From assembly GCA_004297985.1 (NCBI GenBank), contig SCRA01000038.1, positions 1 to 64,000 of the forward strand: a stretch of 64,000 bases of DNA. Direction: 5' to 3'. Position numbers and translations under genes: made by a program. Under the pieces are notes generated by a model. That model did no database searches and was not told the DNA's origin. It worked only from the letters and a program-made list of their open reading frames with translations. Positions 4,992-17,590 of this stretch are shown one piece after another. This DNA comes from a bacterium (GTDB lineage Bacteria; Vulcanimicrobiota; Vulcanimicrobiia; Vulcanimicrobiales; SCRA01). Each line of letters opens with the position of its first letter. The stretch's first letter is position 1.

Positions 4992-5273
4992 ATGAGGATC
5001 AGCGCTACGGAGCTGCAGAGCGTGATCGCCGTCTACAAGACCGGTGGGCTGCCGCGGTCGCAAGGCGGCGCGACCGTGATGGATGCGGCGGAGATCTCAC
5101 TGGACGGAGCCGCTCTCTTGGCGATCCGCAAAGCCTACGACCGTCTTCCCGACGTGCGAGAGGATCGGGTGCGCGAATTGCGCCGCCGCGTGAGCGAGGG
5201 CAAGTATTACATTCCGACGGAAGAGATCGTCGAGAAGATCTTGGGGCGGCTCACCGTCGACTCCATGTTCTAG
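4992..5273 (+). CDS. flgM: Anti-sigma-28 factor FlgM
   Basis: Binds and holds sigma-28 (FliA) until the hook is finished, then is exported. The 93-residue protein shows the family pattern: an unstructured N-terminus and a C-terminal helical sigma-binding half (DRVRELRRRVSEGKYYIPTEEIVEKILGRL). The same V-x-x-LR-x-x-V-x-x-GxY pattern is typical of FlgM. Placement directly before the flgN chaperone and the flgK-flgL junction genes is the usual flgMN-flgKL order. No sigma-28 gene is in this window. Confidence 0.85.
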   Translation: MRISATELQSVIAVYKTGGLPRSQGGATVMDAAEISLDGAALLAIRKAYDRLPDVREDRVRELRRRVSEGKYYIPTEEIVEKILGRLTVDSMF

Positions 5274-9389: not shown

Positions 9390-9848
9390 GTGCCACACCA
9401 GGTTGATCTGCCCCGCTTCGGAGCCGTGACCTACGCCGACGACGACGTCATCGAGTTCCCTTGGGGACTGCCGGGCTTCGCCGACCACCGGCGCTTCCTG
9501 GTCTTGGCGCTCGAGGAGCAGGCGCCGTATCTCTGGCTCCAGAGCCTCGACGACCCCAAGGTGGCCCTGCCCATCGTCGACCCGTGGCAAGTCTTCGCGG
9601 ACTACAAGCCCACGCTCCCTTACTACGCGCGAGTGGCCTTGGATCTGGAGAACCCCGCCGACTTCGTGGTCTACTGTGTGGTGGTCTGCACCTCTGGGGC
9701 CGAGGAGCTGACCATGAACCTGCTGGCCCCGGTGATCATCAATCTCAAGCAGCGGCGCGCGCGCCAGGTGATGCTGGAGGGCACCTCCTACGCGGTGCGT
9801 CAGCCGATCCCGCGGACCGCGGCTCCCAAGGAGGCCCTCCGCTCGTAA
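9390..9848 (+). CDS. fliW: Flagellar assembly factor FliW
   Basis: FliW binds either flagellin or CsrA. When flagellin is exported, free FliW sequesters CsrA and relieves flagellin mRNA from repression. The 152 residues show family blocks: FGAVTYADDDVIEFPWGLPGF, DDPKVALPIVDPW and the C-terminal LTMNLLAPVIINLKQRRARQV. The start is GTG with GATGAGGG 10-16 bases upstream. It lies directly before csrA and fliC, the usual order where this switch is present. Confidence 0.93.
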   Translation: MPHQVDLPRFGAVTYADDDVIEFPWGLPGFADHRRFLVLALEEQAPYLWLQSLDDPKVALPIVDPWQVFADYKPTLPYYARVALDLENPADFVVYCVVVCTSGAEELTMNLLAPVIINLKQRRARQVMLEGTSYAVRQPIPRTAAPKEALRS

Positions 9849-9908
9849 CCGAAGCCCTCCCCCCTGCCGGTGGAAGGCTGCCGGATACGCGCCAGGGAGG
9901 GCCATGGC

Positions 9909-10202
9909 ATGCTCGTTCTGACGAGGAAGCCAAATCAGGCGATCATGATCGGCGACAACGTCCGCATCGTGGTCGTCGCCATCGACGGTGAGCAGGTCAA
10001 ACTAGGGATCGAGGCACCCCGCGAGATCCCCGTGCACCGCTCCGAAGTCTACGACGAGATCCAGCGGACCAACCGCGCCGCAGCGGGAGAGGTGGCACCT
10101 TCCGTACTTGGACAGAAGGGTCACGCAACTCCGCGGCCCGTGCGCCCTGTCGCTCGCCGCATCGAGCCGGAGAACGCGGCGCCGCCCTCCGACGATACCT
10201 AA
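9909..10202 (+). CDS. csrA: Carbon storage / translation regulator CsrA
   Basis: Dimeric RNA-binding protein that recognises GGA in hairpin loops and blocks ribosome binding. Residues 1-55 are canonical ([20 protein letters not shown], then [22 protein letters not shown]), including the RNA-contacting Arg in the PREIPVHR block. Residues 56-97 are an extra basic, Pro-rich tail, making it longer than the usual 60-75. ATG 9909 is chosen because GGGAGGG lies just upstream. Its stop codon overlaps the -35 element of the flagellin promoter, and fliC carries two candidate CsrA sites. Confidence 0.95.
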
Positions 10203-10226
10203 AGTTCGCCTCGCCGGCGCCGATAT
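10200..10226 (+). promoter_or_regulatory. Sigma-28 promoter of fliC
   Basis: TAAAGTTC, an 11-base spacer, then GCCGATAT; this is the best match to the FliA consensus in the window. The TAA of csrA forms the first three bases of the -35 element. The expected start of transcription is near 10232, a few bases before the CsrA-type hairpin. Confidence 0.9.
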
Positions 10227-10235
10227 TCGAGCCAT

Positions 10236-10258
10236 GGGGGAGACAGGATGTCTTTCCC
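10236..10258 (+). promoter_or_regulatory. Candidate CsrA-binding hairpin in the fliC leader
   Basis: Nine base pairs (10236-10244 with 10250-10258; seven Watson-Crick and two G-U) close a 5-nt AGGAT loop. The core ACAGGATGT closely resembles the known CsrA consensus ACARGGAUGU. A second GGA pair lies in the fliC Shine-Dalgarno (AAGGAGGAT, 10282-10290), 38 nt downstream, so one CsrA dimer could bridge both. Confidence 0.75.
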
Positions 10259-10298
10259 AGCCACACGTGTGTCGAACCATCAAGGAGGATAACAACAC

Positions 10299-11588
10299 AT
10301 GTCCCTCTCGATCGCCAATAACCTTCTGGCGAACACCGCGAACCTCAACCTTTCGCGGAACCAGGATGCTCTCCATACGTCGGTCAGCCGCCTCTCGAGC
10401 GGTCTGCGCATCAACAGCGCCGCCGACGATCCGTCGGGTCTGGCCATCTCCGAAGCGCTGCAGGCGCAGGTCAACGGGTTCCAGCAGGCCGCCCAGAACG
10501 TCCAGAACGCCAACAACGCCGCGCAGGTGGCTGAGGGCGCGCTCCAGACGACCACGGATATTCTCCAGCGCATTCGTTCGTTGGCCGTCGAGGCCGCGAA
10601 CGACACGTCGTCGCCCACCGACAAGCAGAACCTGCAAGTCGAAGTTCAGCAGTTGATCCAAGAGGTCAACACGATCTCCGGCAACACGAACTTCAACGGG
10701 CAGAACTTGCTCGACGGCACGCACTCCGGCTTCCAGCCGGCGCAGGCTGCCACGTCGACGCTGACGGCCGACTCGTTCCTGACGGCCAGCCCCGGCCAGC
10801 TCGTTACGTCGGTTTCGCTCTCCACGGCGGCGCAGTCGTCCGCGGCGGTCGGCGTCTCGGCGAGCGACGGCACCATCGAGCTGCAGGTCGTGACGACCGG
10901 CACCACGCTGGTCACGGTCAATGGTCAGTCGGTCAGCGAGCCGACGATCGCCGTCCAGGTCTCGGAATTCGACTCCTCGACCAATACGACGACAGTCCTC
11001 GGCCTCGTCTCGACTGCCGCGACCAGCAATGTGGTCAATGCGCAGACGATCAAACTGTCGGCCTTCGGCGGCAGCCAGGAGCAGGCGCTCTCCATCAACC
11101 TGAACACGGTCACCTCGGGTGACGTCGGTGCAACGACGTTCGTCAAGGTCGCGCAGTTCGTCGCCGCCTCCAGCAACCCGGTGTTCAACTTCCAGTCGGG
11201 TGCCAGCGAGGGCGACGTCGTTCAGCTCGGTCTCCAGGCCACCAATGCCTCGACGCTGCGCATCGGCAACATCAACCTCGCCTCTGGTACGTCGGTGAAC
11301 CCGTCGATCGGTGCGGAGGACGCGATCGGTCAAGTCGACCACGCGCTCGACTCGCTGCTCTCGCAGCGCGCCTCGCTCGGTGCGACCATCGTTCGCCTCA
11401 ACGAAGACGCGAACAACGACCAGGTTACCCAGACTAACCTCCAGGCCTCGGAGTCGTCGATCCGCGACGTGAACGTCGGTCAGGAGACCACGAACTTCAC
11501 CCGCCTGCAGGTGCTCGTCCAGGTCGGCACGGCCGTCCTGGCGCAGTCGAATCAGCAACCGCAGAGCGTGCTCACGCTGCTCCGCTAA
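10299..11588 (+). CDS. fliC: Flagellin
   Basis: Filament subunit. The 429 residues have the conserved N-terminal D0/D1 (NLNLSRNQDALHTSVSRLSS, GLRINSAADDPSGLAI) and the C-terminal coiled-coil (SLGATIVRLNEDANND, SSIRDVNVGQETTNFTRLQV, ending in SVLTLLR). The middle, about residues 150-350, is Ser/Thr-rich and holds few lysines, a plausible target for O-glycosylation by the sugar genes nearby. A strong AAGGAGG precedes ATG 10299. It has its own sigma-28 promoter and a terminator, so it is a single-gene unit with a predicted CsrA/FliW switch. Confidence 0.96.
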   Translation: MSLSIANNLLANTANLNLSRNQDALHTSVSRLSSGLRINSAADDPSGLAISEALQAQVNGFQQAAQNVQNANNAAQVAEGALQTTTDILQRIRSLAVEAANDTSSPTDKQNLQVEVQQLIQEVNTISGNTNFNGQNLLDGTHSGFQPAQAATSTLTADSFLTASPGQLVTSVSLSTAAQSSAAVGVSASDGTIELQVVTTGTTLVTVNGQSVSEPTIAVQVSEFDSSTNTTTVLGLVSTAATSNVVNAQTIKLSAFGGSQEQALSINLNTVTSGDVGATTFVKVAQFVAASSNPVFNFQSGASEGDVVQLGLQATNASTLRIGNINLASGTSVNPSIGAEDAIGQVDHALDSLLSQRASLGATIVRLNEDANNDQVTQTNLQASESSIRDVNVGQETTNFTRLQVLVQVGTAVLAQSNQQPQSVLTLLR

Positions 11589-11684: not shown

Positions 11685-13487
11685 ATGCCGATCCACATCG
11701 TCGGCGGAGGCCGTCCCGCGCCGGCGGGATCGCGCCGGCATCCGCAGCCCGGTCTCAGTCTCTGCATGATCGTTCGCGACGAAGAGGCGCTGCTCGACAC
11801 CTGCCTTACCAGCGCCTGCGCCGTCGTCGACGAGATCTGCATCGTAGACACCGGCTCTCTCGACCGAACGCTGGAGATCGCGCGCGCCTACGGCGCGAAG
11901 GTTCGAGAGATCCCGTGGACTGACGACTTCTCCGAGGCACGCAATGCGTCGCTCGAGATGGCGACGCGCCGCTGGGTGCTCTTCCTCGATGCCGATGAGG
12001 TGCTGAAACCGGAGAGCATCCCGCTGATCCGCTCGATCGTGGCGAGCGAGCCGCAGCGGGTTGGCTTCAACTTTCACTGCATCAACGAGGTCGACGATCA
12101 CGGCAGTCTCGGACAGACCTCGCATCTGGTCCTGCGCCTCTTTCCCAACGACCCAGAGATTCGCTTCGTCCAACCGCTCCACGAATACGTGAGCGACCCT
12201 CAGAGCACGCTGCCGGGAAAGGTGCTGCGCTCGGCAACAGTCGAGGCGTATATCCTCCACCGCGGCTATCTCGACGCGATCGTCCGTCAGAAAAAGAAAC
12301 CCGAGCGCAACCTGGCTATCGCGCTGTCCGCCGTGGAGAAGTATCCGGACGATCCTTTTCATTGGTACGGGCTGGGGCAGACCTACGCGTTCATGGGGCG
12401 GCGTGCCGACGCGAAGGAACCCTTCGAGCGCATGCGTTCCTGTGCGTCGCCCGACGACAAACGAGGGATCATCGCTCACGGTCTGGCTGTGCTCGCGGAG
12501 ATCTACAGCCAGGAGGAGCAGTACGAGCTCGCCGAGCAGCGCGCACGCGAGTCGTTGGAGCGCTCTCCGGGGTATCCCAACGCCTACTTCTCGCTCGGGC
12601 AGGCACTGCGCAAGGCGGGGCGTGCCGAGGAGGCCATCGCGGCGTTCCGTGCCGCCTGCGCCGACGGTATCGATCCCAAGAACTTCGCCGTCGTCGACGA
12701 TCAGGTGTATCAGTGGAAGGCGCGCTGTGAGCTGGGCGTCTATCTTTCGTCGCTGCAGCGCCACGACGCGGCGATCGCTGCGATGGAGGAGGGGATCGCA
12801 CGGGCTCCGGGGGCTCCCGCCTTGCGCATCAACTACGCGCACGTCTTGGAGCAGGCGGGTCAGATCGATGCCGCCGAGCGCGCCTTCGGAGAGGCATTCG
12901 CCCGGCATCCCGCCGCCGACACCGCGCTGCAGAACGTCAACTACCTCTTGCGTCGCGGGCGGCGCAACGAGGCGATGAGTCTGCTCGAGCAGGCGATCGG
13001 ACGCGTGGAGAGCGAGAGCGAACGTGGCACGTTGCTGGATGCGCAGGTGCAGCTCTCCGCGCAAGTGGCGGCGGCGGAGCTGGCACGGCAGGCGGCCGAT
13101 GTTGCGAGCTCGGTCGCCCATCTTTCTCCCGAAGCACAGTTGCGCCAACGGATCGGTCACGCGCTGCAAGGCGACGACTGGGCGCAGGCAGCCGGCCTCC
13201 TGCTCATGCTCAGCGCCGACGGCGTGGAGGAGGATCGATTGCGCGTGCTGTGCGCGTATCGCCTTGGCGAGAGCGATACGCGTGCAGCGGGGCTCCTGGC
13301 CGCCGTCGTTGCGCGGAGCGGATCGCACCTCGAAGCGGTGGTGGAGGCCATCTGTCTGGGCGGTCACGCTGACACGGCTGCCGACCTTCAGGGCGCGGTC
13401 GCCGTTCTGGCCGGGCGCCTGCTGGCGTACGGCCGCAGCGACGAAGCGCGGCGCGTCGTCGACGTGGCACTGGCGGTGCCGCGATGA
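11685..13487 (+). CDS. Glycosyltransferase family 2 fused to TPR repeats
   Basis: Residues about 20-200 form a GT2 (GT-A) domain: LSLCMIVRDEEALLDTCL, EICIVDTGSLDRTLEIA and the nucleotide-sugar/metal motif LFLDADEVL. Residues about 210-600 are helical TPR-like repeats (LGQTYAFMGRRADAKEPFERM, YFSLGQALRKAGRAEEAIAAFRAA). This GT2-TPR design is common in protein and flagellin glycosylation. No Shine-Dalgarno precedes ATG 11685, and the message may be leaderless. It overlaps the next glycosyltransferase by 4 bp (ATGA). The acceptor is presumably flagellin, inferred only from position between fliC and flaG-fliD. Confidence 0.85.
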   Translation: MPIHIVGGGRPAPAGSRRHPQPGLSLCMIVRDEEALLDTCLTSACAVVDEICIVDTGSLDRTLEIARAYGAKVREIPWTDDFSEARNASLEMATRRWVLFLDADEVLKPESIPLIRSIVASEPQRVGFNFHCINEVDDHGSLGQTSHLVLRLFPNDPEIRFVQPLHEYVSDPQSTLPGKVLRSATVEAYILHRGYLDAIVRQKKKPERNLAIALSAVEKYPDDPFHWYGLGQTYAFMGRRADAKEPFERMRSCASPDDKRGIIAHGLAVLAEIYSQEEQYELAEQRARESLERSPGYPNAYFSLGQALRKAGRAEEAIAAFRAACADGIDPKNFAVVDDQVYQWKARCELGVYLSSLQRHDAAIAAMEEGIARAPGAPALRINYAHVLEQAGQIDAAERAFGEAFARHPAADTALQNVNYLLRRGRRNEAMSLLEQAIGRVESESERGTLLDAQVQLSAQVAAAELARQAADVASSVAHLSPEAQLRQRIGHALQGDDWAQAAGLLLMLSADGVEEDRLRVLCAYRLGESDTRAAGLLAAVVARSGSHLEAVVEAICLGGHADTAADLQGAVAVLAGRLLAYGRSDEARRVVDVALAVPR

Positions 13488-14710
13488 TTCCCTTGGTGAG
13501 CCTGGTGCTTCTGACGTGGAACGCGCTGGAGTACACGCGGATCACCATCGAGAGCGTGCGCCGGTTCACCACGTCGCCGTGCGAGCTGATCATCGTCGAC
13601 AACGGCAGCGATGCACCGACGGTCGACTATCTGCGTACGCTGAACGATGCGACGGTGATCTACAATCCCGAGAATCGCGGCTTCGCCGGCGGCTGCAACC
13701 AAGGAATCGCGGCCAGTCACGGCCGTTACGTGATGCTGCTGAACAACGACGTGGTGGTGACGGAGCACTGGCTCGAAGACATGGTGGCCGCCGCTCAGCG
13801 CGACGTGGAGATCGGCATCGTCGGCCCGCGCAGCAACAAGGTCGCGGGCGTCCAACAGTTGGATGCCGGCTACCAGACGATCGAGGAGATGCACCGCTTT
13901 TCCGCCCAGCGCCGCGCCGCGTTCCACGGGCGGGGCACGTTGCTCGACCGCGTCATCGGCTTCTGCATGCTGATCGACCGCCGAGTCATCGATGCGATCG
14001 GCGGTTTGGACGAGAATTTCGGTACCGGCAACTTCGAGGACGACGATTACTGCATGCGCACGCGCCTGGCCGGCTACAAGATCTGGATGGCCGACGACGT
14101 CTTCATCCATCATTACGGCCACCGAACGTTTGCCGCTGCGAAGATCGATTATGCGGCGACGATGGAGCGCAACTGGGGCATCTTCGCGGCCAAGTATGGC
14201 CTCGATCCCGTGAACCGCGGCGGGTACCAGATCGCGCACGTGCTGGCACGCCCCTTCGATCCCCTGCGCCATCGCGTCTCGCTCGAGCGTTACGCCTCGT
14301 CCGCGTTGGCCGAGCTCCCTCCGCGGCGCACGGGACGCCTCCACTCGGTTCTGCCGGACGAGTCGGCGTGGCAGCCGCTCACCGCGTTCATCCGGCGGTA
14401 CGCCAAGGCCTTTTCCGCGGATGACCCCGTCGATCTGGTGATTTGGGATCGGGCGGGCCTTGGCGGAGCGGCCGTGCAGCGGAGGATCGAGCGGCTTATC
14501 GAGCGTGAGGGGATATCGAGCGACCGCACCGGCGAGATCTTCGTGAGCGAGGCCGGTGAGCCGCCGCATGCCGCCGAGCTTCCGCTGGGAGAGGCGCTGG
14601 TGGGACCGGCCGCAGGGGGAGCAGACCGGCTCCTCCGAGCCTCCCGCGGGGAGCTTCGCGGCTGGCTGACCACCCTCAAGGACGGGGGGCAAGCGGCCGA
14701 TATCGAGTAG
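13484..14710 (+). CDS. Glycosyltransferase family 2
   Basis: The 408-residue protein has a GT2 domain in residues 1-250: VSLVLLTWNALEYTRITIES, CELIIVDNGSDAPTVDYL, NRGFAGGCNQGIAASHGRYV, MLLNNDVVV (the metal-binding DxD variant) and the acceptor-side block FGTGNFEDDDYCMRTRLAGY. This pattern resembles rhamnosyl/GlcNAc-type transferases acting on protein or polysaccharide. The C-terminal 150 residues are unassigned. It overlaps the preceding gene by 4 bp, so both are made together, probably to modify the filament. Confidence 0.85.
   Translation: MIPLVSLVLLTWNALEYTRITIESVRRFTTSPCELIIVDNGSDAPTVDYLRTLNDATVIYNPENRGFAGGCNQGIAASHGRYVMLLNNDVVVTEHWLEDMVAAAQRDVEIGIVGPRSNKVAGVQQLDAGYQTIEEMHRFSAQRRAAFHGRGTLLDRVIGFCMLIDRRVIDAIGGLDENFGTGNFEDDDYCMRTRLAGYKIWMADDVFIHHYGHRTFAAAKIDYAATMERNWGIFAAKYGLDPVNRGGYQIAHVLARPFDPLRHRVSLERYASSALAELPPRRTGRLHSVLPDESAWQPLTAFIRRYAKAFSADDPVDLVIWDRAGLGGAAVQRRIERLIEREGISSDRTGEIFVSEAGEPPHAAELPLGEALVGPAAGGADRLLRASRGELRGWLTTLKDGGQAADIE
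14676..14703 (+). promoter_or_regulatory. Possible sigma-28 promoter for flaG-fliD-fliS
   Basis: TCAAGGAC, a 12-base spacer, then GCCGATAT, located inside the last codons of the glycosyltransferase. The -10 core is excellent but the -35 is poor, and the site also encodes the protein, so chance is a real alternative. Confidence 0.35.
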
Positions 14711-17134: not shown

Positions 17135-17590
17135 GTGAAAGCATCCATCGGCGATGGACAGTACAAGTACCTCGAGACCTCGATTCTCTCGTCGTCGCCA
17201 GAAGAATTGATCGTCAAGTGCATGGATATCGCCATCCTCTTCGCTAAGAAGGGACTGGAGAAGATTCGCACCAGCGGTGAGAGTTACGCGACGATGGATA
17301 TCGCCGGCGTCAGCGACGCGCTGATTCGTTCGCAGAAGGCGCTCGCGCTGCTGATGGGTTCCTTGAACTTCGAGATCGGCGGCGAGTTGGCGCATAACCT
17401 CTTCCGGCTCTACGAGTGGTGGCACCACGAGCTGGTGATGGCCAATATGGAGAAGAAGGCTACGCGCATCGAGACGGTTCTTCCCCATATGGTGACGATG
17501 CGCGAGACGTGGGCGGAGGCCGTGCAGAAGTTCCGCCTCGAGCGGCGCCAACAGCGCGACGCGTCGGCCGTAGCGGGTCTCTCGGCGTAG
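17135..17590 (+). CDS. fliS: Flagellin export chaperone FliS
   Basis: Binds the flagellin C-terminus in the cytoplasm and prevents premature polymerisation. The 151 residues match the four-helix FliS fold: YKYLETSILSSSPEELIVKCMDIAI, the QKALALLMGSLNFEIGGELAHNLFRLYEWWHHELVMANMEK block (residues about 69-110, normally LNxxxGGEIAxNLxxLYxY) and a C-terminal TWAEA motif. The start is GTG with AAGGAAG upstream. Confidence 0.92.
   Translation: MKASIGDGQYKYLETSILSSSPEELIVKCMDIAILFAKKGLEKIRTSGESYATMDIAGVSDALIRSQKALALLMGSLNFEIGGELAHNLFRLYEWWHHELVMANMEKKATRIETVLPHMVTMRETWAEAVQKFRLERRQQRDASAVAGLSA

Follow-up and report, generated by a model that had tools for sequence, protein, structure and literature searches.

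A candidate CsrA/FliW translation switch at the flagellin gene of an uncultured bacterium, with a probable self-repression arm at csrA

The known CsrA/FliW brake on flagellin overproduction is very probably at work in an uncultured bacterium, to judge from a 64,000-nucleotide stretch of its genome (the window) and from the matching loci of its relatives. We put the probability at about 0.87 that the leader of its flagellin gene, fliC, is a CsrA-operated translation switch relieved by FliW, a reading drawn from sequence and from analogy with characterised systems. Gene order, two CsrA-type sites, the conservation and covariation of these sites, and the conservation of FliW-contact residues are all observed here. 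The switch is ordinary in kind and new in its lineage: covariation evidence now places the CsrA/FliW/flagellin feedback loop in this phylum too, together with a likely, and possibly new, arm by which CsrA represses itself.

The fliW–csrA–fliC locus and its promoter

The window holds a flagellar run with flgM at 4992, followed by flgN, flgK, flgL and then fliW, csrA and fliC. Pfam confirms flgM, flgN, fliW, csrA and fliC; the names flgK and flgL come solely from where these genes lie and from their reading frames. The arrangement fliW–csrA–fliC, recognised in the first-pass annotation, is thus backed by Pfam for all three genes and is general among the flagellin-bearing genomes of the order. 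No second copy of csrA was found in the genome. The features referred to below are as follows.

4992–5273, + strand: flgM, anti-sigma-28 factor (PF04316, 44 bits)
9390–9848, + strand: fliW, CsrA antagonist and flagellin-binding assembly factor (PF02623, 123.5 bits; resembles solved FliW 5dmb and 2aj7)
9891–9902, + strand: CsrA-type hairpin over the csrA Shine-Dalgarno, GCC[AGGGAG]GGC (motif CANGGANG in csrA leaders of the order)
9909–10202, + strand: csrA, with a C-terminal tail and R44, I51 and N55 (PF02599; residues; PDB relatives)
10200–10226, + strand: sigma-28 promoter, TAAAGTTC-N11-GCCGATAT (sequence and pattern search)
10235–10259, + strand: hairpin H1, the upstream CsrA-type site, with GGA at 10246–10248 (fold, conservation, covariation)
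10262–10271, + strand: palindrome CACACGTGTG between the two CsrA-type sites (comparison of leaders)
10279–10290, + strand: second CsrA-type site over the fliC Shine-Dalgarno, AUC[AAGGAG]GAU within UCANGGAGGA (CANGGAGGA conservation)
10299–11588, + strand: fliC, flagellin (PF00669 and PF00700)
17135–17590, + strand: fliS, flagellin chaperone (PF02561, 83 bits)

FlgM would serve as a transcriptional checkpoint alongside the switch. A published relative of FliS is reported to form a FliS/flagellin/FliW heterotrimer (PMC6070490). Two family-2 glycosyltransferase genes, one with TPR repeats, lie directly 3' of fliC (window 11685–14710), and flagellin glycosylation is a possible role for them.

The sigma-28 promoter claimed upstream of fliC is indeed a perfect one and lies between csrA and fliC. 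The csrA stop codon TAA supplies the first three bases of its -35 element TAAAGTTC, and the -10 element GCCGATAT ends at 10226; the csrA stop falls within a TAAAGT/TAAACT motif in 18 of 39 leaders. When the window was searched with TAAAGTT-N12-GCCGAT, the fliC promoter was the single match with zero mismatches, and allowing up to two mismatches gave 4 matches vs 0.46 expected. Outside the window, the genome encodes a sigma factor of the FliA type (G000:C61, 256.8 bits; cut-off 189.6). The csrA frame of one genus (g5, L061–L063) crosses the fliC sigma-28 promoter and H1 and ends at the TAG in GACTAG, so that the csrA coding sequence there contains a CsrA-type site.

Two CsrA-type sites in the fliC leader

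A 9-bp hairpin with AGGAT in its loop had been proposed near the predicted transcript start, and the computed fold places a stable hairpin at 10235–10259, beginning within about 3 nt of that start. The minimum-energy form is slightly larger than proposed, with 11 pairs (10235–10245 with 10249–10259) closing a loop that is exactly GGA (10246–10248). Folded as RNA from 10232, H1 reaches -15.2 kcal/mol (z -2.65), with 4 of 200 shuffles equally good. When the leader of the window was shuffled 300 times as far as its Shine-Dalgarno, no shuffle gave an equal hairpin with GGA unpaired in the loop. Its core GACAGGAUGUC is near the CsrA SELEX consensus RUACARGGAUGU (PMC7652899), one base shorter.

Since H1 is a GC-rich hairpin right after csrA, it could be taken for an intrinsic terminator or attenuator at the csrA end. 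We rejected this reading as extremely unlikely, because the stem has no U run on its 3' side and H1 lies downstream of the perfect sigma-28 promoter, within the predicted fliC transcript; the conservation of the loop also speaks against it.

Loci around csrA were gathered from 60 relatives and from 149 genomes of the phylum by searches with the fliC N-terminus and CsrA. For the first-pass annotation, the absence of the hairpin and of compensatory changes from the leaders of close relatives would have refuted the switch; the comparison, run here, favours it, as the stem covaries and an H1-type hairpin with an unpaired GGA in its loop is kept in 38 of 39 fliW–csrA–fliC leaders of the order. The exception, L073 (G116), has an H1 loop of AUGAU, without GGA. 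Most loops are pentaloops (AGGAN), one base below the SELEX/RsmE consensus. For 22 representative leaders tested against shuffles, the combined p is near 1e-21, a figure that overstates their independence because the leaders are related.

Covariation was measured on a 30-sequence MAFFT alignment, in which 77.6% of H1 stem pairs are standard vs 66.1% after shuffling, 32 cells are changed on both sides vs 14.8, and the covariation score is 0.459 vs 0.256, each observed value being reached by 0 of 500 shuffles. The true register beats every slid register on the pairing, double-change and covariation measures. RNAalifold agrees, and five of its six consensus pairs are changed on both sides in some sequence. 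When the 3' arms of H1 were exchanged between sequences the pairing dropped, with none of 20,000 permutations reaching the observed value, and the outcome holds with about one leader per genus. This answers the worry that a G-rich and a C-rich arm would pair through composition.

Beyond the order, GGA-loop hairpins were found in flagellin leaders of the distant families f8 (G070, three leaders), f9 (G071) and f14 (G136 and G139), as well as in one G068 leader of family f6 (1 of 5 f6 leaders); for none of them did more than 5 of 300 shuffles do as well. The same shuffle test gave no significant upstream hairpin in the flagellin leaders of G133, G066 and most of G068.

The second GGA, which had been placed in the Shine-Dalgarno 38 nt further on, is at 10284–10286 and starts exactly that distance after the first; a third GGA (10287–10289) lies within the same Shine-Dalgarno, which reads CAAGGAGGA, also given as UCAAGGAGGA. 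Written as AUC[AAGGAG]GAU, the sequence forms a short hairpin whose hexaloop belongs to the CANGGANG type, described as the high-affinity CsrA/RsmE target (PMC4894983). All 39 leaders carry CANGGAGGA at the ribosome site, with the N position varying among A, C and T. For a baseline, about 0.4 Mb of this genome was sampled with simple gene calls and approximate starts; of 50 genes there that have GGAGG as Shine-Dalgarno, 4 carry CANGGAGG, one of the four being fliC, which leaves 3 of 49 others. The second flagellin of the genus has ACC[AUGGAG]GGU, likewise a CsrA-type Shine-Dalgarno hairpin.

Across leaders the two sites lie 30–62 nt apart, wider than the optimum of 18 nt cited in PMC4894983; this spacing counts against the switch reading, as do the short H1 loops, the L073 exception and the distant leaders with no significant hairpin. 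In the whole genome CAGGANG-N(15-45)-CANGGAGG matches 4 places, and its reversed control 3. By itself, then, the pair of motifs is not unusual, and it is the hairpin, the promoter and the position that distinguish the fliC leader. Pattern searches for further CsrA targets in the same genome yielded no convincing additional double site.

The stability of H1 and its place within about 3 nt of the predicted start would also suit a hairpin that mainly protects the 5' end of an abundant fliC mRNA against decay, the GGA loop being incidental, and stems that vary freely yet remain paired are what such a role would leave. A stabiliser needs no fixed loop, yet the loop keeps its GGA in 38 of 39 leaders; the retention of CANGGAGGA at the ribosome site and the tracking of FliW by N55 of CsrA (see below) also argue for the switch, and we regard protection from decay as the main role of H1 as highly unlikely.

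Between the two sites, a palindrome GACTAGTC just 3' of H1 is conserved in many genera (L010, L012, L018, L061, L067 and others). The window, g2 and g37 have CACACGTGTG in its place, a form common to some genera, and elsewhere other palindromes or hairpins occur instead. A pairing of GACTAGTC with the first fliC codons, seen by eye, was dropped since 4–5 bp amounts to chance. Many genera also have a predicted hairpin, H2, in this interval, but it exceeds shuffles only weakly (combined p 0.017) and is not predicted in the window; we do not claim it. A further leader hairpin at the start codon, CGUGUG/CACAUG, is good in g2 and the window and is not kept elsewhere.

CsrA, FliW and the csrA leader

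The CsrA of the window is a protein of 97 aa with the RNA-binding residue R44 and the FliW-contact residues I51 and N55. In C. jejuni, I/V51 and N55 are needed for FliW binding, and N55 also in B. subtilis (PMC7829508). Within the phylum, all 48 CsrAs beside FliW have N55 and carry I or V at position 51; among the 31 whose locus lacks FliW, 7 have N55. Of solved structures, the two closest to CsrA are 1t3o and the CsrA chain of 5dmb. FliW likewise aligns to the FliW chain of 5dmb, an entry identified as the Geobacillus CsrA–FliW complex (PMC7829508). The match to the CsrA/FliW/flagellin mechanism seen by the first-pass annotation is therefore supported at the sequence level by R44, I51 and N55, by the FliW-type pair and by the conserved sites.

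From homologues we infer CsrA binding, fliC repression and relief by FliW, which would fit together as follows. Sigma-28 would start the fliC mRNA a few bases before H1. A CsrA dimer would then place one RNA-binding face on the GGA loop of H1 and the other on the CANGGAG site over the Shine-Dalgarno, and this two-site grip would keep ribosomes off fliC. FliW, binding CsrA around I51/N55, would cause it to leave the RNA, and unexported flagellin, binding FliW, would free CsrA again. Flagellin would thus be translated only at the pace of its export. CsrA probably also limits its own synthesis via a similar hairpin at the csrA Shine-Dalgarno.

The earlier reading of CsrA-type sites held for fliC and missed this last, conserved hairpin. 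All 43 csrA genes of the order that lie beside fliW have CANGGANG as their Shine-Dalgarno, nearly always as GCC[ANGGAG]GGC with N free, and csrA genes without FliW have the compensated stems ACC/GGU and GCG/CGC. A conserved CsrA-type hairpin in this position leads us to infer self-repression, and we consider it somewhat probable, on sequence grounds, that CsrA represses its own translation through GCC[ANGGAG]GGC as a conserved extra arm of the switch. If so, this arm would contribute to the balance of FliW and CsrA that the flagellin loop relies on. It would also answer the prediction of Oshiro et al. (2019) that further, unidentified controls of FliW–CsrA levels exist in B. subtilis (PMC6529632).

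The csrA Shine-Dalgarno also falls inside a longer predicted hairpin with an upstream CCCUCCC. A Hammerhead_II (Rfam) hit across fliW–csrA (9847–9935) scores 24.4 bits, below the gathering score of 37, has no CUGAUGA core and is probably chance. Within the window, no Rfam-recognisable CsrA-sequestering sRNA of the CsrB/RsmZ type matched at the gathering score.

CsrA-type Shine-Dalgarno hairpins at csrA and the second flagellin also bear on whether the leader is chiefly a sponge, through which abundant fliC mRNA titrates CsrA off other targets and fliC control is secondary. The C. jejuni flaA leader does titrate CsrA besides being repressed (PMC4894983). The second site here covers fliC's own ribosome site, which is best explained by repression, and sponge action is compatible with a translation switch at fliC; as the chief function of the leader we find titration very unlikely.

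Known systems and natural uncoupling

The two-site layout with demonstrated CsrA repression is known from C. jejuni flaA and B. subtilis hag (PMC4894983; PMC7652899). The first-pass annotation had stressed that the mechanism here occurs in a diderm, which is not novel, since flaA of the diderm Campylobacter jejuni is already published (PMC4894983). The flaA system shares with ours a sigma-28 promoter, FliW as CsrA antagonist, two GGA-bearing stem-loops with the second over the ribosome site, and compensatory stem changes among relatives. The flaA leader is 45 nt long and its two sites, separated by 21 nt, are both ANGGA hexaloops (PMC4894983), whereas here H1 is mostly a pentaloop, the spacing of 30–62 nt accommodates a palindrome or a further hairpin, and fliW, csrA and fliC are neighbours.

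The published B. subtilis work describes two CsrA sites on hag, one over the Shine-Dalgarno, with fliW and csrA adjacent and a flagellin–FliW–CsrA partner switch of the kind we propose (Yakhnin 2007 and Mukherjee 2011, via PMC7652899; Oshiro 2019, PMC6529632). In those accounts fliW contains the Shine-Dalgarno of csrA, and translation of the two genes is coupled; here, by contrast, a fliW–csrA spacer carries the conserved CsrA-type hairpin over the csrA Shine-Dalgarno. E. coli csrA autoregulation, as summarised in PMC7652899 (Yakhnin 2011), likewise involves CsrA sites in the csrA leader with one over the Shine-Dalgarno, but with four sites and sRNA antagonists rather than a single short hairpin and FliW.

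The loop has come apart naturally in several lineages, which offer cases for studying its gain and loss, both as csrA without fliW and flagellin and as fliW without csrA. Many genomes of the order have csrA without fliW or flagellin (L075–L114), and their CsrAs are shorter and mostly without N55. In genus g23 (G042, G108; loci L152, L153, L115, L155) fliW lies directly before fliC, and no csrA was detected at E<=1 in the two genomes, which may reflect a recent loss of csrA or an undetected CsrA. The fliW-linked fliC genes of g23 are without the hairpin and have a plain AAAGGAGUG site, and other G042 flagellins keep the GGA hairpin or CANGGAGGA; we regard this combination of site loss and retention as mixed evidence. 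Flagellin is present in 50 of 52 FliW-bearing genomes. Locus L054 (G004) retains fliW and a csrA with N55, with no flagellin match in the genome, and a neighbouring opposite-strand frame resembles, by eye, a glycosyltransferase.
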